NCBI GenBank assembly: GCA_018823025.1
Contig: JAHJJI010000142.1
Coordinates: forward strand, 1-64,000
DNA: 64,000 nucleotides
From: Gammaproteobacteria bacterium
GTDB lineage: Bacteria > Pseudomonadota > Gammaproteobacteria > Burkholderiales > Sulfuricellaceae
Direction: 5' to 3'
The translations under genes were made by a program, and so were the position numbers. Shown here one piece after another: positions 4,904 to 49,769 of the stretch. The stretch's first letter is position 1. Each line of letters opens with the position of its first letter. A model generated the notes under the pieces. That model did no database searches and was not told the origin of the DNA. It saw only the letters and a list, made by a program, of their open reading frames with translations.

Positions 4904-5143
4904 GGTGCCTCCATTATATATTGAGAGGTTATTGGCTATTCAAGGAGGTCTTCGCACGCTACAGAGCCCAAATGTCTGGCAGTTTGGCTCATGGGTGGGG
5001 TCTGCTATCCAATCGTTGTTGCCGAGGTCAATTTTCACATGGTTAGGTCTGTGAAATCTAGGCGCAGTTTAAATGCATTTTATTTAATATAATATTAGCA
5101 TCTTTTAATATACCCAATGATATTGTTTTCTGTAGTGATCTAG
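4904..5143. other. Non-coding, AT-rich upstream region
   Basis: About 240 bp between the radical SAM start and the integrase relic. It is AT-rich in its second half. The radical SAM promoter should lie here; a TATATAAT is present on the minus strand but sits too close to the ribosome-binding site to be convincing. Its right end may contain more of the decayed integrase, beyond recognition. Confidence 0.5.
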
Positions 5144-5302
5144 TTGGAGAACAGCTACGATATCCGTACCGTGCATGAGTTGCTCGGCCATTCGGATGTA
5201 TGCACTACGATGATTTATAATCACTTTCTCAATCTTGGCGGCATGGTTGAAAGTCCAATTGGATCACCTTTGATGAACCTCAGTGCTGAATCATGGAGAT
5301 AA
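5144..5302 (+). pseudogene. Relic of integron integrase (IntI) C-terminus
   Basis: A 52-codon open stretch reads [18 protein letters not shown], then [13 protein letters not shown] and ESPIGSPL. This matches the last part of integron integrases (YDIRTVQxLLGHSDVSTTMIYTHVL..GG.GVxSPLD), including the box II histidine (LGH) and the nucleophile tyrosine (MIY). A TAG stop directly precedes it in frame and nothing further upstream is recognisable, so only the 3' tail survives. The SPLD-like ending separates it from XerC/D. It overlaps the start of thpR by 10 bp. A cassette-like array lies 33 kb to the right; any link between the two is inference. Confidence 0.8.
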
Positions 5303-38229: not shown

Positions 38230-38371
38230 TGTCAAATCTTTATGGCAGTGTCCAGTCGAGCCTGAACTTGTGCGTCAGTTCGGTGCCATAAGGCGACGGT
38301 GGCTACACTTTGTTCGACCGGCAGCAACATGATGATCAGCGGTCAATCAGACAAGGAGATATTGGGATTTT

Positions 38372-38464
38372 CTACAACGTTTGACGTAAGGTGCAGCCAG
38401 AGCCGCAGGCGGAGGGAACCCAAAGCGTAGCTTTGGGCCGCCCCTCTCGGCGGAATTGTTAGGC
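38372..38464 (-). other. attC-like integron recombination site 1
   Basis: On the minus strand a 93-bp site runs from a GCCTAAC core (38458-38464), followed by AATTC and GC-rich inverted arms, to a GTTGTAG at the far end. The centre is a perfect hairpin CCCAAAGC-GTA-GCTTTGGG (38419-38437). The stop codon of the upstream gene (TAA, 38459-38461) lies inside the core, as in many gene cassettes. The distal core deviates from GTTRRRY. Confidence 0.7.
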
Positions 38465-39055
38465 ATTGCTCGTATCATCCTTGAGTCGCCCTCTAAGGAA
38501 TTTTCCTGTAGCTCCTTTTAGCTCGCTTCTGTCAAAGAGCTTGCCTTCAAACTGAAAATCCCGATCAATGCGAACAATGAGCAACTGCTCAAAGTTTCCT
38601 TGGCTCTTGACGAGTACACGGTCGCTGGCTTTCTCAGGCGAGATGGTCTTTACCTCAACGAGCTTTCCGGCAATTGTGCCGTCAGAACCGGCCTCGTGTG
38701 TCCCATGACGGCGAAGTCCGAATTTGATTTCAGCGTAGATCTCCCCGAGTTCTCCCCAGACTTGTAAGTACCTGCCAGTATTCTCGAAGTGACGTGTAGC
38801 GCAATCAACTAGATCGTGGAAAATCTCAGCTTGCTCTAGGGTGCTAAAGGGAAATCCATCTCTGCTCTGAAAAGGGGTGCCTGGCTCAACTGGGATGGCA
38901 TCATTTTCTGGTGCATCTTTAAGCTGAGAATCGATCCATTCTCTGCTTATATATTCCCACTCCCAAGGCGCTGCGCCAGAGCCCGCAGCGTCGGCTATTT
39001 CCTCTGGACTATAACCACGTTCGTTCATTTCATAAAGGAAATCCCAGTCGCTCAT
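38459..39055 (-). CDS. Cassette protein with PD-(D/E)XK-like motif
   Basis: 198 residues. Start ATG 39055 with AGAGAAG lies 12 bp after the upstream attC-like site; a longer start would fall inside that site. The C-terminal half has GELGEIYAEIKFG, then D125 (AGSDG) and E134-V-K136 (KLVEVKTIS), the spacing and hydrophobic context of a PD-(D/E)XK nuclease fold. The N-terminal half is helical and acidic. Family not recognised; restriction or repair-type cleavage is inference. Its stop codon is in the next attC core. Confidence 0.7.
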   Translation of the reverse strand: MSDWDFLYEMNERGYSPEEIADAAGSGAAPWEWEYISREWIDSQLKDAPENDAIPVEPGTPFQSRDGFPFSTLEQAEIFHDLVDCATRHFENTGRYLQVWGELGEIYAEIKFGLRRHGTHEAGSDGTIAGKLVEVKTISPEKASDRVLVKSQGNFEQLLIVRIDRDFQFEGKLFDRSELKGATGKFLRGRLKDDTSNA

Positions 39056-39066
39056 AGCTTCTCTTT

Positions 39067-39135
39067 GCCTACGTTTGAAATCACCGGCGCTGCGCAGCTT
39101 CATCGCGTAGCAACCGGTGGATTGATGGGTTAGCG
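39067..39135 (-). other. attC-like integron recombination site 2
   Basis: 69 bp between CGCTAAC and CGTAGGC (minus strand). Arms AATCCACCGG and CCGGTGATT pair except for one extra C, which matches the extrahelical base typical of attC arms. The right-hand core appears to have lost one T of GTTAGGC. Confidence 0.65.
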
Positions 39136-39150
39136 TTCGCTGGCATAGTG

Positions 39151-40512
39151 TTACTCACTGAGATCACTAGCCGTCTGTAGTGCCAGTACGGCGGATGGGA
39201 GTACACGATTGAGCCAAAAATCCGCGTCGAGTTTTCGATTACCGGAAAGCGAGGTATCGAAGAGGAACGATTGAATGGAGTCACGGAGGCACGCCTTCGC
39301 AATAATAGCCTGCTCATGAATAAGGGGAGCATCTTTAGATTGAAGATTTAGCCCGCCATGAACAACCCTATTTCGTACCTTTTGTATGTCACGAATCCTT
39401 TCAAAACGAACGCGGCGAACTTCCGTGGTACCGAGAAACGCATAGTTCAAGGCAACTCGGAAGGAGAGTTCGGATGAGTCGTTTGGATTGAGCAGTGCCT
39501 CAAGTCCAATAACTGCGTCGAGCAGAGCATCAACGGGTGACATGCGATGTTCGGCGTCCATTAGTCGAACACAGGCAATTCGAACTTCATCGCGTTGGTT
39601 TGCGGTCAAGCGAGAATGCACTTCGAAAAGCCTCGGAATATCCTCGCTTGTCAGGTTCATAGATGCGAACGGATGCCTAACTAGAGGGGCCATGCTATGC
39701 CCACCAAGCCCTGGTAGGACGAGTGGTCCGATGTCAAAAAAGCTGGCTATCACACCGACGCGGCCTTCCTTTAGTACGTGAAGCGCTGATAGAAGCGTGC
39801 CGAGCTGTTCCTGATTCCGCTGCTGCAAATCCGACTGCGCAATTGGCTCCGAATAGTCGGGCGTCAGTCGGAAAAGGACGTCCTCCTCGATAAATGCGGC
39901 GGTTGAAACTGAACGGGAAATAATGTCATGCCGGTCTCCAGACGTGACATCATGGCTACCTAAATCTGAGATTTCTTCATCGGACAGTTTCCGAACTGAA
40001 AATCGATCGGTGAGTTCTATCCATTCGACACCCTCCGGTAATGTCAGTCCACTGAGTGGGGTACGCACCTGCTGCTTCACTCGACGTGAGATGAGGACGG
40101 CATGTAGATCGTCGAGGACTTTTCCGATGGCATCGTTCATCGGGACACCGGTCGCCAGGTGCCGTTCCGCCTCCTTGCACCAACAAGTTGCGAGACTCGT
40201 TACGTCCTGAATCTTTTGGCTCCGTCCAGGGACTGAAACGTAACCAAGAAGCTCAGGTTGGCTTTCCATTACTTCAACTTGGAAATCCTTTAGAGAGGCA
40301 AGCTCTTCTACCCTGCGTTGAAATGCGATCCATGTGTGAATGCCGCGATAAGGCTCGATATTTATTGAGAAAGAACCACCACCCTGCGGACGCACAACGC
40401 GCTTCCAATCAGCGGGTTGCTCGGCAATCCACAATGGGAAAAGTTCGTGGAGTAAGCACGTCGCACTTGTCCTTACTCCTTCGAGTAGCCCGACTTTCTC
40501 TGGTTCGCTCAA
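39151..40512 (-). CDS. Cassette protein with Apea-like HEPN domain
   Basis: 453 residues, start TTG 40512 with GGAG upstream. The N-terminal 250 residues are not recognised. The C-terminal part (about 310-430) is helical: DALLDAVIGLEALL, ELSFRVALNYAFLG, then RNRVVHGG, giving the HEPN signature RNxxxH at R380, N381 and H385. HEPN domains of this Apea-like type are seen in RNases and defence proteins. The gene ends 15 bp before attC-like site 2 and begins 22 bp after site 3. Confidence 0.78.
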   Translation of the reverse strand: MSEPEKVGLLEGVRTSATCLLHELFPLWIAEQPADWKRVVRPQGGGSFSINIEPYRGIHTWIAFQRRVEELASLKDFQVEVMESQPELLGYVSVPGRSQKIQDVTSLATCWCKEAERHLATGVPMNDAIGKVLDDLHAVLISRRVKQQVRTPLSGLTLPEGVEWIELTDRFSVRKLSDEEISDLGSHDVTSGDRHDIISRSVSTAAFIEEDVLFRLTPDYSEPIAQSDLQQRNQEQLGTLLSALHVLKEGRVGVIASFFDIGPLVLPGLGGHSMAPLVRHPFASMNLTSEDIPRLFEVHSRLTANQRDEVRIACVRLMDAEHRMSPVDALLDAVIGLEALLNPNDSSELSFRVALNYAFLGTTEVRRVRFERIRDIQKVRNRVVHGGLNLQSKDAPLIHEQAIIAKACLRDSIQSFLFDTSLSGNRKLDADFWLNRVLPSAVLALQTASDLSE

Positions 40513-40534
40513 TATGGTCTCCGCAATAGTCGAG

Positions 40535-40590
40535 CGCTAACGTCGGAGATGACCGCCGATAGGAGGTCCGTGTCGATCGACCTGTTAGAC
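40535..40590 (-). other. attC-like integron recombination site 3
   Basis: 56 bp with a perfect GTCTAAC core (RYYYAAC) at one end (40584-40590) and CGTTAGCG at the other. Arms GTCGATCGACACGGACC and GGTCATCTCCGAC are imperfectly complementary. Short for an attC, but the core is good. Confidence 0.6.
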
Positions 40591-40597
40591 CTCTGGC

Positions 40598-41275
40598 TCA
40601 CAGAAAGTGCTCGATGAGTTCCCGTGTGCCCGAAATCAAGTCTCCAGCATCGCGGATGTCGAACTTGTCCCATTCTGCGTGAAGCGCTGGGTTTCTAACT
40701 CCGGCGTACGCCTTCACACGTTTTGCCTTCACGGGGGTGAACACCCCCGCCTTGACCAGTGCGTCAACCAACGGCTCCAGCGTGAGGCCGCTGCCGCTTA
40801 CATTGTTCTTCGTGGCGATACGCTTAATCGTATCCTCAAGGACGATGGCTGCGAGGACTCCGGCCTCGCGAGCCTTGTTCGCGCGATGGAACGCCTCCGC
40901 ATGATCCAGGAAGTCGTCGAATGCGGTTGCCATAACTACGTCTTCCAGTCGGCGCAGTAGGCCGTGTTCCGCCTCGTCTTTCAGGGAGGCAAGTACGCCG
41001 TGCATCTTTTGTACAAGCGGCCATGGAGCCCCGCCAGCCAGCTCCTTGCTCGTCGTGATTCGCGTCAGTTCGTCGCGGAAGTAGCTACCCTGAGCGGTCG
41101 TCAGCAAAATCAGGTTCGCACAGGAAGTCATCCAAGCCTGGACGTCTGGGATTAAATCTGCATCGACCCAATGTTCAGGGCCGTATTCCCCCTGGTGTCT
41201 GCGCCGGGACATAAGCACGCCACCGCGCTGAAGCAAGGCTTCGATTCGCTTTAAGAGGTCTGGCGTAAGAGACAC
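40598..41275 (-). CDS. Cassette protein with HEPN-like RNxxxH motif
   Basis: 225 residues, start GTG 41275 with AGGAG 7 bp upstream. A mainly helical protein. The second half reads AIVLEDTIKRIA, LEPLVDALVKAGV, then VRNPALHAEWDK, a canonical RNxxxH (R194, N195, H199) of the HEPN/DUF4145 kind. It could be an RNase-type effector or a helix-bundle binding protein. It begins 17 bp after an integron core site. Confidence 0.75.
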   Translation of the reverse strand: MSLTPDLLKRIEALLQRGGVLMSRRRHQGEYGPEHWVDADLIPDVQAWMTSCANLILLTTAQGSYFRDELTRITTSKELAGGAPWPLVQKMHGVLASLKDEAEHGLLRRLEDVVMATAFDDFLDHAEAFHRANKAREAGVLAAIVLEDTIKRIATKNNVSGSGLTLEPLVDALVKAGVFTPVKAKRVKAYAGVRNPALHAEWDKFDIRDAGDLISGTRELIEHFL

Positions 41276-41291
41276 GAGGTTGCTCCTGAGG

Positions 41292-41298
41292 TCTAACG
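41292..41298 (-). other. Lone integron core site (attI-like or truncated attC)
   Basis: GTTAGAC on the minus strand fits GTTRRRY exactly and equals the core of site 3. No inverted arms surround it, which fits an attI site or the edge of a lost cassette. Confidence 0.5.
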
Positions 41299-41302
41299 GT
41301 TA

Positions 41303-41308
41303 TTATAC
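41303..41308 (-). promoter_or_regulatory. Possible -10 element before the cassette array
   Basis: A perfect TATAAT on the minus strand, 28 bp before the first cassette gene. At 17-bp spacing the -35 region reads AACAAT, a poor match. Confidence 0.35.
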
Positions 41309-41570
41309 GGACCCACCGGTCAGTATTGTTGTTAATAATAAGGCGTGCTGTTTTATGATAAGTTGTTGATTCATAGCAACCAGATAAATTTCCCTGTTCG
41401 CATATGATGTAATAATACGGCAAATCAATGAGGCTCGTGTGCAATGCATTTGCCTATTGGATTGTGTGGCCGTTGTTGAGTGCTTAGCCGACTATGGACA
41501 GGTAGGCGCTGACAGTCCATTTTGGGTCGAAAGTGTGAGTTCGTCATTCTATGCTGCGTCCAATGGTGTA
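41309..41570. other. Intergenic right of the cassette array, no gene seen
   Basis: About 260 bp, AT-rich near the array. No integrase can be read on either strand. Confidence 0.45.
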
Positions 41571-41600
41571 AGGTAACCGGGGCCGAAGCCCCGGTTACCT
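41571..41600 (-). terminator. Strong hairpin terminator-like element
   Basis: A perfect 13-bp stem AGGTAACCGGGGC / GCCCCGGTTACCT; on the minus strand the loop is TTCG. It lies 4 bp after the stop of the small minus-strand gene. The T run is weak, so efficiency is uncertain. Confidence 0.65.
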
Positions 41601-41604
41601 TTAC

Positions 41605-41751
41605 TTAACCTTGCGGTTTTTTGGGTGACGGAATCTTCACACGCTCTTTCTCGGTCTCCCTCGGGTGGGCGCGAGCAAATTTCTCGTCCACGATTCGACC
41701 GGATACAGAGCTGCGGAAGATAGTTCTCGTTTGGCTGGTAGTTTTAGCCAT
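41605..41751 (-). CDS. 48-residue protein with SGRIV motif
   Basis: MAKTTSQTRTIFRSSVSGRI then DEKFARAHPRETEKERV. The pattern RSSVSGR(I/F)V..xxARxxPxxTxxE recurs in small phage and chromosomal proteins of unknown function. ATG 41751 has AGGAGA upstream. It is followed by a hairpin terminator. Confidence 0.7.
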   Translation of the reverse strand: MAKTTSQTRTIFRSSVSGRIVDEKFARAHPRETEKERVKIPSPKKPQG

Positions 41752-42055
41752 GGGAAATCTCCTTTGCATCAGGTTGCAGAGGAGGGCAAACACAATCTTG
41801 GCTGTCCCACATATTGCGCCCACAAAAAATGCGGGTTACTATCGGGTTTCTGTCAGTTCCAAGTAATATTTGTTTTACCGCTCTGGGCAGATCATCTGTT
41901 CAGAGCGCCTCATCCGCGCAGCATTTCTACCACATATAGTGGTTTTTAAAATGCGACACCACTAATTCTAGTGCTTTGTTTCGTTATACGCAACAACTTG
42001 TCAAGTAAATCCATTTTATTGGCACATAATTATTATTCATAGGTGCTCGACAAGC
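41752..42055. other. Intergenic at the left edge of the prophage, nothing recognised
   Basis: AT-rich, about 300 bp. The left phage boundary should be near here, but no direct repeat or attachment site can be defined because the right end is outside the window. Confidence 0.4.
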
Positions 42056-42066
42056 GCCATTTCCTT

Positions 42067-42081
42067 CCCCTGTTTATGTCT
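42067..42081 (+). promoter_or_regulatory. Phage motif copy 1 (CCCCTGTTTATGTCT)
   Basis: First of three identical 15-mers, 26 bp before the small terminase gene. Similarity with copy 2 extends 11 bp further upstream (GCCATTTCC). Confidence 0.6.
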
Positions 42082-42107
42082 AGCTATGTTCGCGCAAACT
42101 GCGCAGC

Positions 42108-43052
42108 ATGGCCAAAGATCGTTCTGATCCGCTTTCTCGTGTCACTTTCCGTTGCAAGGTTTGCCAGTGTAATTTCGAGGCGGAACCTGAGCGGGTAGAG
42201 GCTTGTCCGGAGCTGGAGCATCATCCGTTTGCTTATTTCGGGCGCTGTCCGCATTGCGGGGCGGAGGCGGAGACGGCGCATTGGTATCTGAATCTGATCA
42301 AGGGTTGGTCGAAAGCGACGGGGCCGACTACGCCGGAGGGGGTGGCGGCGACTTCGGCTAACCTGGTGGGGCATCCGACGCCGGAAGAATCCAAACGCAC
42401 TCGATTCAATGCGATGAAGCACGGGCTTTCTGCCCGGACTGCGACTTATTTTCCTTCCAAGCCTGACGGTTATGATTTCTGCAGGGGCTGCGACGTTGAC
42501 CGCGGTTATTGCGCGGAGCAGCCGGCATGCGTGAAGAAGACCGAGCTGTTCATGCTGCACCATGCGGCGTTCGATCAGCGCAATCCCAAGCACTTGATGG
42601 GCATTTATGCCGACCTGCAGGCGTCGATTTTTGCGGTGCTGCAGCAGATCCTGCAAACCATCGTGGCGGACGGGGTGAAGATCACGACGCCAGAGTGGTA
42701 CACGGACAAGGAAACCGGGAAGACTGTCATCGCCGAGTACAAGGATGAGCAGGGAAACCGGAGAATTCTGACGGAGATCAATGCTCATCCGCTGTTCAAG
42801 CCGCTGGGTGATCTGCTGTCCAAGACCGGCCTGACTCTTTCCGATATGGGCATGACGACCAAGGTGATCGAGGCGGAATCGGAGGAGATGGGGCAGCTGA
42901 GTGCGGCCCGGGCGGACAAGGATAGTTTGCTGGATTTTGGTCGCCGGCAGACCGAGGCGCTGGAGAAGCTGCACGGGGTAATCGAGCGGGCGCGGCTGGA
43001 GAAGGGGCGCGATGCGGTTTTAATCGAGTACCAGGAGAACAACGGTGGCTGA
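42108..43052 (+). CDS. Phage terminase small subunit-like protein
   Basis: 314 residues with an N-terminal zinc ribbon (RCKVCQC ... GRCPHCGAE) and further Cys pairs (FCRGCDVDRGYC), then a helical C-terminal half with coiled-coil character. Position directly before the large terminase with an 8-bp overlap supports a DNA-recognition role in packaging. I do not recognise the exact family. The start lacks a strong ribosome-binding site. Confidence 0.65.
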   Translation: MAKDRSDPLSRVTFRCKVCQCNFEAEPERVEACPELEHHPFAYFGRCPHCGAEAETAHWYLNLIKGWSKATGPTTPEGVAATSANLVGHPTPEESKRTRFNAMKHGLSARTATYFPSKPDGYDFCRGCDVDRGYCAEQPACVKKTELFMLHHAAFDQRNPKHLMGIYADLQASIFAVLQQILQTIVADGVKITTPEWYTDKETGKTVIAEYKDEQGNRRILTEINAHPLFKPLGDLLSKTGLTLSDMGMTTKVIEAESEEMGQLSAARADKDSLLDFGRRQTEALEKLHGVIERARLEKGRDAVLIEYQENNGG

Positions 43053-44670
43053 GCGGGTTTCGGCTGCCGACCGGCTGCGCCTCACCAACCGGGCGGAGGT
43101 GGAGATCAAGCGCTACGCACAGCCGGATCCGGAAACCGGCGTCCGCCAGCATTCCTTGTGGCACAAGCACGTTCACAACGCCAACCTCGACCCGATGCAG
43201 GTTTTGCGCATGATCGAGATGGACCAGTACCCTAACACGATCGATATTTCCTGCCGGCGCACGCGCAAGACTTCCACCAAGGAGCTGTACAACCTGGAGC
43301 GCCTGTCCGTCAACCCAGGGCTTGAGCTGGGCATCGTGGCGCCACGTCAGCAGCAGAGCACGAACAATCTGAATTACATGCTGGAGGCGATCGCGCGTTC
43401 GCCGATGCTGCAGGCGTATATCGCTTATGCGCGTGGTCGACCGCGGCTGGCTGATACCGGATTCCAGTTCACCAACGGTTCCAAGGCTTCGGCCTACGGG
43501 ATCATGGGGCAGATCGATGGCGATTCGCTGGCGATCGCTTCCCTGGAAGAAGTGGACGACATGCCTGCCGACCGGCTGCTGTCGCGTTTTTTGCCGATGC
43601 TGGGCGCTTCCGAGCGGCTGGGTATGGAGGTGAAGATCGAGCCGGAAATCCGCATTTCAGGGGTTTACAAGGGCGCGGACGTGTTGCAGAACCTGATCGA
43701 CTCCGGGCAATACCGTGTGCTGCCGACGGTGGATGTGTATCTGGGGCAGGAGCTGGGCATCATCAACGCGGACTGGGTGGCCAACATGCGTGCCCAGCAG
43801 ACCGAGGGGGAGTGGATCCGGCAGTTTCTGTGCCTGAATGTGGCATCTCAGAACTGGATCTGGGAAAAGCATATCAAGCGCGCCCGGGCGGTAGGGCTGG
43901 CGGCCGGGCTGGAGATCGCCGGGCCGCTGCCGGGTCGGCGATACAAGCGGCGCGGGCTGATTTCGTTCGGTTACGACCATCTTGGCCACGGCGAAAGCCT
44001 GGTCGCCTCCAAGTCGGGACTGGTGGTGTCGGAGCTGGTGGGGAATTTTGTCACTTTTCCATTCGTGCGCACATGGCCGGCTGGTACCGACGAGAAAATC
44101 ATTGAGCGCGAACTACTGGTGCTGTGGGAATACTTCCGGCCTGACTACGCCATGGGCGACGCTTACGGCATCGGCCTGCTGACTTCGGTGAACGACGCGC
44201 TGTTTCGCTTGGGGCTGACGGATATCGACCGGATGAGCATCGGCGACGGGCAGAGCACGCAGACCACCTGGGGATCGTGGCCGTTCGCGCCGATCCGCTT
44301 CTCGGGCATGACCAAACATGCCATGGCGTCGGTGCTGCGCAGCGCGTTTCACAACGGGCGGGCTGCGGTGCCGTATTTCGACGACGACAGCGCCCTCTCC
44401 CCCGACCCCTCTCCCGCAAGCGGGCGAGGGGAGATTGATCAGGATTTTCTGACCTTTACGCGGCAGCTGGCCAACATCAAGGAAGAAAAAACCAAGGCGG
44501 ATTATTCCTCCTTCAAGATGGCTGACCCGAAGATCGGCGACGACTTGTTCGACGCGGCGTGCGCGGCGGTGTGGGCGCTGGAAACGCGCGGGGCGGACGA
44601 TGTGGCGACGGTGATCGGGCAGCGCACGCAGTCGCGGGATCAGTTGCTGGGCATGAAGGTGGCGGCGTGA
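43045..44670 (+). CDS. Phage terminase large subunit
   Basis: 541 residues, start GTG 43045 with AGGAG. The ATPase part has an unusual Walker A (SCRRTRKTST, residues 69-78) and a Walker B-like stretch ending LAIASLEEVDDM with the catalytic Glu. The nuclease part has Asp-bearing segments FGYDHLGHGES and DYAMGDAYGIG. An in-frame copy of a palindromic repeat inserts SPDPSPASGRGEID at about residues 451-464. The enzyme would package phage DNA into proheads. Confidence 0.82.
   Translation: MAERVSAADRLRLTNRAEVEIKRYAQPDPETGVRQHSLWHKHVHNANLDPMQVLRMIEMDQYPNTIDISCRRTRKTSTKELYNLERLSVNPGLELGIVAPRQQQSTNNLNYMLEAIARSPMLQAYIAYARGRPRLADTGFQFTNGSKASAYGIMGQIDGDSLAIASLEEVDDMPADRLLSRFLPMLGASERLGMEVKIEPEIRISGVYKGADVLQNLIDSGQYRVLPTVDVYLGQELGIINADWVANMRAQQTEGEWIRQFLCLNVASQNWIWEKHIKRARAVGLAAGLEIAGPLPGRRYKRRGLISFGYDHLGHGESLVASKSGLVVSELVGNFVTFPFVRTWPAGTDEKIIERELLVLWEYFRPDYAMGDAYGIGLLTSVNDALFRLGLTDIDRMSIGDGQSTQTTWGSWPFAPIRFSGMTKHAMASVLRSAFHNGRAAVPYFDDDSALSPDPSPASGRGEIDQDFLTFTRQLANIKEEKTKADYSSFKMADPKIGDDLFDAACAAVWALETRGADDVATVIGQRTQSRDQLLGMKVAA
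44392..44432. repeat. Palindromic repeat, family C, inside terminase gene
   Basis: CTCTCCC...CTCTCCCGCAAGCGGGCGAGGGGAG. The arms CCCGC / GCGGG pair around AA. In frame with the terminase, adding about 14 residues. Confidence 0.8.
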
Positions 44671-44682
44671 ACGGCTTGAAGC

Positions 44683-44718
44683 AAATCCCCCCTAGCCCCC
44701 CTTTTGCAAAGGGGGGGA
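44683..44718. repeat. Palindromic repeat, family A, copy 1
   Basis: AAATCCCCCCTAGCCCCCCTTTTGCAAAGGGGGGG. Arms CCCCCCTTTTGC / GCAAAGGGGGG. The G run stands 2 bp before the GTG start of the next gene and can act as its ribosome-binding site. Confidence 0.85.
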
Positions 44719-44719
44719 T

Positions 44720-44998
44720 GTGATAGGGAACGAATACGCGCGGGCAACGGGGAAAGAAACCCATCCCCACCCTAGCACTCCCCTTGAAGGGGAGGGGATT
44801 GATGGTGGCGGGCGAGGGGAGGAAAAAAGGCGTCCGCGCGAGTTGAGCGAGGACGAGAAGTTAAAGGTGGCGTGCACCGCGCAGCGCGTGGAGCTGCACA
44901 TGCCGGAAGTGGTGCCGCTGGTCAAGGAACTGCACGCGCTGGGAATGATAGACGGCTGGCGCAATGTGAAAAATTTCAGGTTTAAGGAGGGGTCATGA
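44720..44998 (+). CDS. Small phage protein with embedded repeat
   Basis: 92 residues from GTG 44720. Residues 13-33 (ETHPHPSTPLEGEGIDGGGR) are encoded by a palindromic repeat; the likely original protein is the C-terminal half (RELSEDEKLKVACTAQRV... to NFRFKEGS). It overlaps the portal gene by 4 bp. Function unknown. Confidence 0.65.
   Translation: MIGNEYARATGKETHPHPSTPLEGEGIDGGGRGEEKRRPRELSEDEKLKVACTAQRVELHMPEVVPLVKELHALGMIDGWRNVKNFRFKEGS
44759..44820. repeat. Palindromic repeat, family B, copy 1
   Basis: CCCATCCCCACCCTAGCACTCCCCTTGAAGGGGAGGGG with a G-rich tail. Arms TCCCCTT / AAGGGGA. In frame within the small gene. Confidence 0.8.
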
Positions 44999-46368
44999 GC
45001 CTTTTGGAACGTACTTTCAAAGCCACCGGGCGGGTAGACACCACGCTGCTTTCCAAGGCGCGACTGCCGAACGAGCCGGTTTCGCGAAGCTCCGAGATAG
45101 GTCGACGGCCAACGCCGGAAGATCAGCTCAAGTATCTGTACCGGTTGATGTGGGTGGATCCGGATCTGCGCCAGGCGATTCTGGATGTGCGCGAGATGGA
45201 TCGGCTCGATGGTCGGGTCAAGCGCATTCATGCCCGGGTAGCGCGCGACGTGATCAAGGGCGGGCTGATCATGCAGCAGGCCAAGGAAAACGAGAAGCTG
45301 GCGACCTTATGGGACGAATTCCAGCGGCGCCTGCAGTTGAACCGGGTGGAGAAACTGAAATCCGACGCCAAGGGGCTGGTGATGGAAGGAAATTTACCCA
45401 TGCAGTGGGTGCTCGATGGCGACTACAACGTGGTGGCCGGGGTGCGCATGCCATCCGAAACCATCCTGCCCAACGTGAGCGAGGCCGGGCAGTTCAAGGA
45501 TGTGGCCAAGGCCTATATCCAGTTCGACATCATGACCGGCAGCGAGCAGGCCAGCTTCCCGCTGTGGCAGCTGCTGTTTGCGCGCTTCGACCCGGACAAC
45601 TTCGACGACATGGGCAGCCTGGGACGGCCGTTCCTGGACGCGACCCGAACTACCTGGCGCAAGCTGATCATGACCGAGGAGGATCTGGTGATCCGGCGCC
45701 GGATGCGTGCACCGCTGCGCATGGCGCATTTCCTGAAAGGGGCGAGCCCGACCGAGCTGCAAACCTACAAGGACGAAGTTACCGCCAACCAGGGCGAGAT
45801 CACCACCGATTATTTCTCCAATAAGGAAGGATCGGTCACGGCGGTGCAGGGCGATACCAATCTGGACCATACCAAGGACATCGTGCATCTGCTGGATACC
45901 TTCTTCGCCGGTTCGCCGCTGCCCAAGGGAATGATGGGCTACACCGACGGCATGGCGCGCGACATCCTGGAGGATCTGAAGCGCGACTATTACGACGAGG
46001 TGGATGTGCTCCAGGACACCCTGTCATTTGTTTACGACCAGGGATTCCGGCTGCACCTGCTGCTGAAGGGGATCAATCCGGACGACGAGGATTTCAGGAT
46101 CACGTTTGCCGAGCGTCGCACCGAAACGCCAAGCCAGACGGCGGATCGCGGATTGAAGCTCCAGGCATTGGGAATTCCTCAAGGAATGGTGTGGGAAGAA
46201 CTCGGGTTCGATCCGTCCTATGTGCGGAAGCGCAAAGACTGGGAGGCGAAGAACTATGACCCTTACCCTGAGCCGGACAAGATCAATGCACCTGGTGCTC
46301 CGAAAGTCAGCGTTACACCTGGCAACGGGCGCAAGGGGGATTCGGCGACGAGCATCAGCAATGGCTGA
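44995..46368 (+). CDS. Phage portal protein
   Basis: 457 residues in the position and size of a portal between terminase and MuF. Internal features: QLKYLYRLMWVDPDLRQAIL, a long helical region with RVKRIHARVARDVIKGG, SPLPKGMMGYTDGMARDILE and a Pro-rich C-terminus. It forms the dodecameric DNA channel at the head vertex. Start ATG 44995 has AAGGAGG upstream. Assignment rests on order and general character. Confidence 0.75.
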   Translation: MSLLERTFKATGRVDTTLLSKARLPNEPVSRSSEIGRRPTPEDQLKYLYRLMWVDPDLRQAILDVREMDRLDGRVKRIHARVARDVIKGGLIMQQAKENEKLATLWDEFQRRLQLNRVEKLKSDAKGLVMEGNLPMQWVLDGDYNVVAGVRMPSETILPNVSEAGQFKDVAKAYIQFDIMTGSEQASFPLWQLLFARFDPDNFDDMGSLGRPFLDATRTTWRKLIMTEEDLVIRRRMRAPLRMAHFLKGASPTELQTYKDEVTANQGEITTDYFSNKEGSVTAVQGDTNLDHTKDIVHLLDTFFAGSPLPKGMMGYTDGMARDILEDLKRDYYDEVDVLQDTLSFVYDQGFRLHLLLKGINPDDEDFRITFAERRTETPSQTADRGLKLQALGIPQGMVWEELGFDPSYVRKRKDWEAKNYDPYPEPDKINAPGAPKVSVTPGNGRKGDSATSISNG

Positions 46369-48661: not shown

Positions 48662-48971
48662 CCTATCGCTTATCCACAGTTTTTGTGGAAAAGCCACTGC
48701 ATAACTCTGACTCACCCCCGATTCATCTGCCTGACCGCTTACTGCTGAAATTTTAGGCGGCTGTCTGCCATGTGCCATGAACAGGCATTCGACCAGCCGG
48801 GCGTGACCGTCTGAAATATGGCGAACTACAGTCATTCATCGGTAGAGTTAGTGCAAATATTTCTCTTTTAAAACTCTGTAAATTGTCACCAGAATTTTTA
48901 ACCCATAGGGCTTTATATTTTGATAGTTGCCTCAATCTTGGGGGCTTCCATCTTATTTTCGATAACATCTC
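48662..48971. other. Intergenic, no gene seen
   Basis: 310 bp between the MuF unit and the DUF3050 gene. No open frame of note and no terminator. The sequence looks like decayed chromosomal filler rather than phage. Confidence 0.45.
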
Positions 48972-49769
48972 ATGACGAATCTTGACCAGCAGTTTTCTGA
49001 AGTCCTTATCAAGCAACATAGCTTGGAGGCTCATCCTGTCTTTTCCGCCATCAAAACACTAGACGATTTACGTGTGTTCATGTCCTGGCATGTGTTTGCG
49101 GTATGGGATTTTATGTCCCTGCTTAAGCAACTCCAGCGCAAGTTGACCTGTGTTGATTTGCCTTGGGTGCCGCCAGCTAATCCTGTCGCATCAAGACTTA
49201 TCAATGAGATTGTACTGGGTGAGGAATGTGATGAAATGCCAGGAGGAGGGCATCTCAGTCACTTTGAGATATATTTACTGGCAATGCGTGAAATAGGCGC
49301 TGATACTAGGCAGATTGAGGATTTCGTACGGCTCATTCGTGCAGGCACATCGGTCGAGATGGCATTACAATCGGCGGGGGTGGATTGGGCAGTCAGTCGC
49401 TTTGTGACCAGCACCCTTAACACTGCTATTACGGGTAGCGTGAATGAAGTGCTGGGCAGTTTTTTCTTTGGACGGGAAAACGTCATTCCCGCAATGTTCA
49501 GGAGTCTGTTGGCACAATGGCAGGTAGACGAAAAGAAAACGCCAGTATTTGTCTACTACCTCAATCGTCATATTGAGCTGGACGGCGATAGCCATGGCCC
49601 CGCAACCTGGAATATCATCAAGGAACTAGTCGGCGATGATCCTTTTGCCAACGCTCAGGTCAAGTCTGCCGCAGAAGAAGCTATCAATGCGCGACGGGAT
49701 TTATGGGACGGGTTGGCGGCGTGTTTAAAAGATATTAATGCCCAACCCCTCGAAAAGATGAGGGCGTAA
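48972..49769 (+). CDS. DUF3050 heme-oxygenase-like protein
   Basis: 265 residues matching DUF3050: FMSWHVFAVWDFMSLLKQLQ, RLINEIVLGEECDE and YYLNRHIELDGDSHGP. These Glu/His positions fit the metal site of heme-oxygenase-like diiron oxidases, so an oxidase role is a reasonable inference. It is not a structural phage gene; it sits between head genes, flanked by about 300 bp of sequence without genes on each side. Confidence 0.85.
   Translation: MTNLDQQFSEVLIKQHSLEAHPVFSAIKTLDDLRVFMSWHVFAVWDFMSLLKQLQRKLTCVDLPWVPPANPVASRLINEIVLGEECDEMPGGGHLSHFEIYLLAMREIGADTRQIEDFVRLIRAGTSVEMALQSAGVDWAVSRFVTSTLNTAITGSVNEVLGSFFFGRENVIPAMFRSLLAQWQVDEKKTPVFVYYLNRHIELDGDSHGPATWNIIKELVGDDPFANAQVKSAAEEAINARRDLWDGLAACLKDINAQPLEKMRA

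Follow-up and report, generated by a model that had tools for sequence, protein, structure and literature searches.

An integrase-less integron cassette array that probably sits on an orphan, dispersed attI-like element in a Sulfuricellaceae bacterium

RESULTS

In the window analyzed here (the whole stretch of 64 kb), three genes on the minus strand form an integron cassette array at 38372-41297. It opens with a core GTTAGAC (41291..41297, minus strand), followed by the genes of cassette 1 (40598..41275), cassette 2 (39151..40512) and cassette 3 (38459..39055), all on the minus strand. Each gene is followed by one attC site in the same orientation with the arrangement R''-L''-L'-R'. Site 1 (40535..40590, minus strand) pairs the R'' core GTCTAAC (40584-40590) with GTTAGCG (40535-40541), site 2 (39066..39135, minus strand) pairs CGCTAAC (39129-39135) with GTAGGCA (39066-39072), and site 3 (38372..38464, minus strand) pairs GCCTAAC (38458-38464) with GTTGTAG (38372-38378). 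A first-pass annotation of this DNA had described three same-strand genes with these cores, their partners and a lone GTTAGAC, and every one of these features is present. The TAA stop codon of the lowest-coordinate gene indeed falls within GCCTAAC, and the extra base reported for site 2 is an unpaired C in one arm. The partners had been called GTTRRRY-like; site 2 deviates, with a right core of GTAGGC, and the other cores are as described. The first core of each cassette complements the R'' core of its own attC site: over 9 of 9 nucleotides in cassette 1, whose opening core has its exact complement at the cassette end, over 7 of 7 in cassette 2, and with one T missing in cassette 3.

To score these sites, we used an attC covariance model trained on 28 attC sites, all from integrase-adjacent arrays. 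With filters off, the three best matches in the 64-kb window were the three sites, all on the same strand (site 2, 52.2 bits, E 5e-11; site 1, 28.3 bits, E 8e-5; site 3, 21.4 bits, E 0.005), and the match ranked fourth reached 15.1 bits (E 0.22), so the cassette signature exceeds chance. The score of site 3, the lowest of the three, is explained by its right-hand core, GTTGTAG, which is part of the flank and not of a cassette. A genome-wide search with the same model at E 0.1 listed two of the three sites. The simpler analyses could be taken to favor chance hairpins lying between unrelated genes, with no integron array at all: a first core-and-fold scan recovered none of the three sites in the window, a second (37.2-42.6 kb) recovered one together with a false site, and the folding energies of single sites only modestly beat shuffled sequences (z of -1.1, -2.2 and -2.3). 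The attC model matches, the cores and the element family described below contradict this explanation, and we consider it vanishingly improbable.

The protein encoded by cassette 1 (225 amino acids) is HEPN-like, with the motif RNPALH, and many of its plasmid relatives are annotated as HEPN or DUF4145 (24.6 to 27.0% identity for the best 20 of 26). A structure model of low confidence (pLDDT 66) ranked HEPN folds at the top, at an E value of only 0.3. The gene of cassette 2 (453 amino acids, TTG start) encodes a protein with an RNRVVH motif that belongs to no family: no match was found in Pfam, PADLOC or NCBIfam, and no relatives in genome contigs, plasmids or phages; its structure model was uninformative (pLDDT 35). 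The protein of cassette 3 (198 amino acids) weakly matches DUF6998 (Pfam PF22522, 26.1 bits against a cut-off of 27) and has plasmid relatives of up to 80% identity. Its start probably lies after the core and not at the ATG at 39103 within site 2. The annotation had proposed that orthologues always found in one order, together with failure of an attC model, would speak against an array; the attC model does match, and the four relatives of this gene that we inspected lie in other contexts. It had also suggested looking for the same genes beside other attC sites, and one of these relatives is carried by a Vibrio plasmid cassette that has attC sites of its own. A pattern-based search of viral contigs found no relatives of the three genes, no PADLOC defense model matched any of the three proteins, and no second copy of the cassettes was found in this genome. 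The HEPN-like motifs and the DUF6998-like domain hint that the cassette genes may serve phage defense.

On one side the array borders prophage packaging genes, comprising a terminase region and portal (42108..46368, plus strand), in which the terminase shares 53% identity with a phage DNA packaging protein and PHROGs assigned head/portal functions at 44995-46368. The six proteins encoded on the other side (34.1-38.2 kb) had no relatives in 55 viral loci retrieved via the terminase.

The array starts at a conserved region of ~140 bp, the putative docking region attI-B (41291..41430, minus strand), which ends at the core G|TTAGAC and scores 132 bits in nhmmer, this copy being among those used to build the model. 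We examined 29 copies, 6 from this genome and 23 from relatives, and saw at most six in any one genome. A separate short run of genes follows each copy, the first gene starting no more than tens of bases beyond the core. Same-strand attC matches of at least 20 bits lay downstream within 4.5 kb in 22 of the 29 copies, compared to upstream in 2 (both tandem) and on the opposite strand in 1. The remaining 7 copies had no downstream attC match; one of them, L167, ends at a contig end. Among the 26 copies in which the script located a core, 13 showed exact 8-nt self-complementarity of that core within 2.5 kb, versus 34 of 646 mismatched pairings. Different genes lie behind different copies: tblastx comparison of the DNA downstream of 27 copies found a cassette gene in common only at an orthologous locus. 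At the glgP-symporter locus, G000 and G003 share one gene and G006, with perfect cores, carries another, a difference that may indirectly reflect insertion or excision of cassettes by an IntI.

An uninterrupted (empty) attI-B was not found, and a joined 239-nt query matched its left and right parts separately within the family. The sole match spanning the core, G048:C5, was rejected as an empty site, as it contains a gene. Eight further symporter loci were inspected for an element-free orthologue, and neither G007, where glgP directly precedes the symporter, nor G013, where other DNA lies in between, gave a clean boundary. No attI-B was detected in plasmids and phages (search with 142 window bases), and its exact pattern was absent from viral contigs. 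That pattern occurred in four stretches of genome contigs: one, from a Betaproteobacteria MAG, is identical to the G006 copy in the sequence around the element and represents that copy; of the others, L139 reached 10 bits with the element HMM, and two gave no score. Rfam returned no match. A consensus promoter scan found nothing on the minus strand of attI-B and one weak plus-strand site near it.

The first-pass annotation was correct that no integrase lies within several kb of the array; the nearest trace in the window, 33 kb off, is a relic of an integron integrase C terminus (5141..5260, plus strand; ~40 residues with a stop codon; TIGR02249, 42.3 bits). A complete resident intI is located on contig C99 (500 bits). 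In a relative, G090, attI-B occupies the attI position, between a complete divergent intI and the cassette GTTAGAACTC...GAGTTCTAAC; this copy scored 94.6 bits even though it was excluded from HMM building. Comparison of 23 of the 28 over-cut-off integrases revealed 69.8 to 77.2% identity to the resident C99 IntI for 21 of them and 51% for the G090 IntI. Judged by these identities, the resident IntI and the 21 others are a different branch from the G090 IntI, which is why the resident integrase may be unable to use attI-B. Across 25 integrase-adjacent stretches, attI-B was present at G090 only and a different site, attI-A, at 14. G003 and G171 carry attI-B and have no integrase over the cut-off. 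In a protein-level comparison, matches between attI-B cassettes and integrase-linked stretches were few (the three longest span 68 to 124 residues at 46 to 71% identity).

Could the cassettes have entered a secondary (attG-type) site, a host repeat containing G|TT, with the left element being a conserved host promoter instead of an attI? That attI-B mostly lies far from any intI, while integrase-adjacent stretches mostly carry another attI, would fit, as would the nonconsensus GTTGTAG core of the right flank and an edge motif, GACGCTGTAGAAAA, that also flanks other arrays as inverted arms. By definition an attG target is neither attI nor attC, so the left flank, being attI-B, argues against it, and the right flank alone could be compatible. 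The G090 copy stands where an attI is expected, beside and divergent from a complete intI, and neighboring genes differ at nearly all of the 27 copies compared; we regard secondary-site insertion as quite unlikely.

Loss of the integrase in place is a common explanation for CALINs, and each locus may once have been a complete integron with intI beside attI-B. Relics of intI, such as that at 5141-5260, do occur in this genome. However, tblastn with both integrase types over up to 4 kb upstream of the 29 copies found intI at the G090 copy only (other signals: E 0.003 at 20% identity, E 0.07 and E 0.17), and the window relic, 33 to 36 kb from the array, appears to resemble the resident IntI type. 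We consider decay in place unlikely.

The right-hand flank (38246..38386, minus strand) is conserved as well: dispersed arrays in the family share it (nhmmer score of 117 bits, this copy being part of the model; BLAST to relatives), and it was detected only within family f1. Array edges across the family repeatedly carry the motif GACGCTGTAGAAAA. The conservation of both flanks between loci, and tandem attI-B units with both flanks at C69, could mean that a transposon- or MITE-like mechanism moved the array together with its flanks. Against this, no terminal inverted repeats of attI-B units were seen by eye, and the inverted GACGCTGTAGAAAA arms precede the cassette cores of other arrays and not attI-B. 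We give unit movement little likelihood.

DISCUSSION

With at least two attC sites by our own model and no intI nearby, the array is by definition formally a CALIN; intI is not adjacent to attI, as it is in a complete integron, and an attI at the array start is indicated by the homologous attI region in the G090 integron. The first-pass annotation had proposed a stranded CALIN. Its integrase-less cassette array stands; "stranded" fits only in part, as a conserved attI-like element opens the array and a conserved flank closes it, in a genome with five further attI-B copies bearing cassettes or worn cassettes and a complete intI on another contig. Our analyses, which are of sequence, make it likely that this is an integrase-less integron on an orphan, dispersed attI-B.

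We propose that the three cassettes would have been captured by site-specific recombination between attC, as a folded bottom strand, and attI. The capture site would be a copy of attI-B separated from any integrase gene, and attI-B itself a dispersed docking site in this lineage. An integrase acting in trans probably loaded the cassettes; it could be the resident IntI or a since-lost IntI-B. The element may also drive cassette transcription, for which the promoter scan was blank on the relevant strand. More tentatively, and with somewhat less than even confidence, we suggest a distributed integron: an active integrase locus together with many orphan attI copies derived from a second integron class, trans-loaded with different cassettes, with the palindromic GACGCTGTAGAAAA arms around G|TT as a further landing site.

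Like CALINs, the window array has three same-orientation attC sites and no nearby integrase; it differs in its recognizable attI element and conserved right flank, both of which are repeated at several loci of the genome. In the Shewanella prophage M16-3, a CALIN has an attI of its own (Qi et al. 2023, PMC9892861) and is likewise an integrase-less array that starts from an attI site beside phage packaging genes. According to the part of that report available to us, the same attI is found at that prophage's complete integron, whereas attI-B differs from the attI of the resident integron; unlike the M16-3 CALIN, attI-B recurs at many dispersed loci in several families. In Xanthomonas, CALINs occur at loci away from ilvD (PMC12444791), so that clusters of cassettes similarly occupy several places on the chromosome and intI lies elsewhere; in the excerpt of that study available to us, no common attI-like element is described at these positions, unlike the attI-B seen here. 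Cassettes away from the integron platform are also known from attG sites (Loot et al. 2024, via PMC12901181 and PMC12444791). As far as the excerpts of these sources go, attI-B differs in being one long conserved sequence, found at the attI position in G090.

This analysis identifies the attI-B copies, the resident integrase and the G090 integron, whose integrase is the presumed cognate one. Together, the dispersed copies suggest that one genome is able to carry several docking sites for mobile genes. Integrons are usually described as having a single attI beside intI, that is, one favored, expressed position at which cassettes queue. Several orphan attI copies per genome, if true, would lift this single-position limit, and some CALINs would then be accounted for as docking sites instead of debris. 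A distributed integron, if true, would allow several cassettes to occupy the favored first position simultaneously.

A three-cassette array without a nearby integrase

The first-pass annotation had proposed a small integron-like gene cassette array with no integrase beside it, and direct sequence reading found all of the features that it named at positions 38372 to 41297 on the minus strand. The array starts with the core GTTAGAC (41297-41291), followed by three open reading frames, each succeeded by an attC site recognized by sequence reading and by an attC model: gene 1 (225 aa; attC at 40590-40535), gene 2 (453 aa; attC at 39135-39066), and gene 3 (198 aa; attC at 38464-38372).

The attC model, R1, was built on 28 sites from ten loci, with none contributed by the window or the dispersed arrays. 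These sites were chosen by eye among 56 candidates, the array-direction matches of a core-and-fold scan in 11 integrase-adjacent stretches, and the structure was written by hand on their alignment. The same scan yielded 45 candidates on the opposite strand and is thus not specific alone; simple scans of this kind recovered at most one of the three window sites. With filters off, R1 scored 52.2, 28.3, and 21.4 bits at exactly the three reported sites, on one strand, and the next-best match in the window reached 15.1 bits. Across the whole genome at E 0.1, R1 returned 27 sites, including two of the three in the window. Folding energies of the single window sites (z of -1.1, -2.2, and -2.3) are weak evidence for attC by themselves. 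Based on the attC model, the cores, and the absence of a nearby integrase, the array is real and by definition a CALIN (a cluster of attC sites without a nearby integrase).

A circular cassette carries one attC, whose two cores pair. Cassette 1 starts with GTTAGACCT and ends with its own AGGTCTAAC (9/9 complementary), and cassette 2 starts with GTTAGCG and ends with CGCTAAC (7/7 complementary). Cassette 3 starts with GTAGGCA and ends with TGCCTAAC, one T short. Other arrays of the group (contig C69 of the same genome and the relative G048) have GTAG-type starts too, so cassette 3 shows a variant that need not reflect damage. The most likely start of gene 3 is therefore 39055, behind the cassette 3 core. 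The final right-hand core, GTTGTAG, is part of the flank and not a cassette core.

A dispersed element precedes the array

The 140 bases ahead of the first core (41291-41430, minus strand) are a repeated element. A query joining this left element to the conserved right flank at the far end of the array (38246-38386, minus strand) matched 8 of the 22 genomes of the window genome's family (f1), its own included, and 23 of the 399 genomes of the order. Best E values were <1e-6 in 17 genomes, one of which (G017) matched by the right flank only, and weaker in 6; as two candidates were scored per genome, copy numbers are lower bounds. We examined 29 left-element copies base by base and trained an HMM on 26; two G004 copies, both partial (∼30 bits), were excluded. 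By HMM or base-level reading, the window's own genome carries copies in the window, on C69 (two, in tandem), C115, C107, and C71, the last degenerate (19 bits, E 6e-4).

In G090, a genome of another family in the same order, a copy excluded from HMM training (94.6 bits) stands on the plus strand next to a complete integron integrase (400 bits, minus strand), ∼30 bp past the integrase's stop-to-stop frame and ∼115 bp from that frame's first ATG. The cassette after it has cores GTTAGAACTC and GAGTTCTAAC; its attC-like site scores 20.8 bits (E 0.04). This position beside intI is the textbook position of attI, and we therefore call the element an attI; attI-B, and attI-A for the site described below, are labels coined here.

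Same-strand attC sites of at least 20 bits lay within 4.5 kb downstream of 22 of the 29 copies and downstream of none of the other 7; sites occurred upstream of 2/29, both tandem, and on the opposite strand at 1/29. The exact 8-nt complement of the core was found within 2.5 kb in 13 of the 26 copies in which our script found a core, compared with 34 of 646 trials of cores in other copies' DNA. The DNA after the core varies, often with a start codon within ∼50 bases by eye. A tblastx comparison of the next 3.2 kb of 27 copies, made between different stretches and not within a stretch, revealed a cassette gene common to attI-B loci at a single orthologous locus only. Flanking genes of these 27 copies also varied, outside that locus and two protein-family pairs (25 largest clusters). 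The first pair shares an ankyrin-like protein family; the second links the G090 integrase to a similar recombinase encoded 1.9 kb downstream of a G177 copy. This open frame (L170, G177:C1), ∼1.9 kb 3' of the attI-B copy, scores below the integron-integrase cut-off.

attI-B copies and integrases lie apart except in G090

The resident integrase of the window's genome, on C99, is 51% identical to that of G090 and 69.8 to 77.2% identical to 21 others (23 of the 28 over-cut-off integrases were compared). attI-A (TTTTTAGGGTGTCTACTTTACGTT, up to 4 mismatches) was found in 14 of 25 integrase-adjacent stretches, C99 included; attI-B was found only in G090's. An integrase over the curated cut-off occurs in 15 of the 22 family genomes and in 8 of ten further-searched genomes (G003 repeated and nine others); G003 and G171 have none over the cut-off, though both carry attI-B. 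Searches up to 4 kb upstream of the 29 copies recovered intI at G090 only. Among the copies and integrases listed, no pair except G090's stands side by side, and the shortest same-contig distance is ∼43 kb (G014:C23).

The C99 integron (L026) has a complete intI, attI-A, and 10 attC matches. Contig C121 (L027) starts with an attI-A-like site followed by 6 attC matches, and inspection by eye showed no integrase in the 280 bases preceding that site. Lone attC sites, with no second match nearby, occur at C120:16135, C11:25210, and C107:35870. The window also holds an integron integrase C-terminus relic with a stop codon (5141-5260, plus strand), similar to one at G004:C61:1368-1487.

Probable cassette turnover and a candidate second landing site

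Between glgP and a symporter gene, C107 and G003 carry the element, a 120- to 125-aa gene, and a worn attC (21 to 25 bits); at the same locus, G006 carries the element, a different gene, and perfect cores. The simplest reading of these sequences is that a cassette was replaced at an inherited site; alternatively, elements may have inserted separately at one spot.

Family arrays end in a conserved right flank starting TTGACGCTGTAGAAAATCCC (TTGTAGAAAATCCC in the window). Its HMM matched in f1 genomes only, and copies at loci L031 and L180 are at best look-alikes by eye. The 22 family genomes contain 23 exact matches to the 14-mer GACGCTGTAGAAAA (2 to the reversed control), and the window's own genome has none. 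By our own reading, 12 matches close an array at its right end (the core of one, in G003, is degenerate), and the other 11 are arms in inverted orientation immediately ahead of a cassette-type core; at 15 of the 23 loci, the fetched flank contained an attC with an E value of at most 0.1. A three-attC array in G001:C23 is flanked by both arms, and one right arm closes an array starting at attI-A of G015's integrase. These sequences point to a second recurring landing site for cassettes, a putative palindrome around G|TT. No uninterrupted copy was found among the loci examined.

Family loci with cassette arrays flanked by the inverted arms TTTTCTACAGCGTC...GACGCTGTAGAAAA, the possible palindromic landing site, include L174, L185, and L256. 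A second, weaker right-flank copy in the window (48745-48853, minus strand; 32.5 bits, E 4e-8) lies inside the prophage and adjoins a DUF3050 gene (48972-49769); other weaker copies are on C51 and C110.

Genomic setting and cassette genes

Prophage packaging genes, including a terminase with a Microcystis phage relative, adjoin the array from 42108 onward. Among 55 viral loci fetched by terminase, 49 have relatives of the gene preceding the terminase and 53 of the portal; none of these loci has relatives of the six proteins encoded on the other side of the array. The array's neighbour is thus the packaging end of a prophage. An 83% identical copy of 41575-42166, which includes a small gene upstream of the array, lies near the end of contig C119.

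Gene 1 has relatives in 26 plasmid records, for many of which the annotation is HEPN or DUF4145 (24.6 to 27.0% identity for the best 20 of 26), and an RNPALH motif; its structure model is weak, with HEPN folds as top matches (E 0.3). Gene 2 has an RNRVVH motif, and domain-profile searches found no family for it. Gene 3 scores just below the DUF6998 cut-off and has relatives on Variovorax (80% and 72%) and Xanthomonas (73%) plasmids, stretches on which the attC model gave no match. A 42% relative in Vibrio vulnificus lies in a cassette starting GTTAGGCTATT and ending AATAGCCTAAC, with attC-model matches before (15.8 bits) and after (23.3 bits). PADLOC gave no match on the array genes. A defence role is our guess from domain types, consistent with the defence genes often reported in cassettes (PMC12444791).

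Published work already describes CALINs in phages and a Shewanella prophage CALIN that has an attI of its own (PMC9892861), CALINs at several Xanthomonas loci (PMC12444791), and cassette insertion at attG, away from the integron platform (Loot 2024, as described in papers citing it). Literature listings and abstract openings, with subscription literature largely out of reach, did not mention any attI family dispersed in this way, which is weak evidence for its novelty. For the array, an integrase-less integron sitting on a dispersed, orphan attI is a better description than CALIN, and its main interest is the attI-B family.
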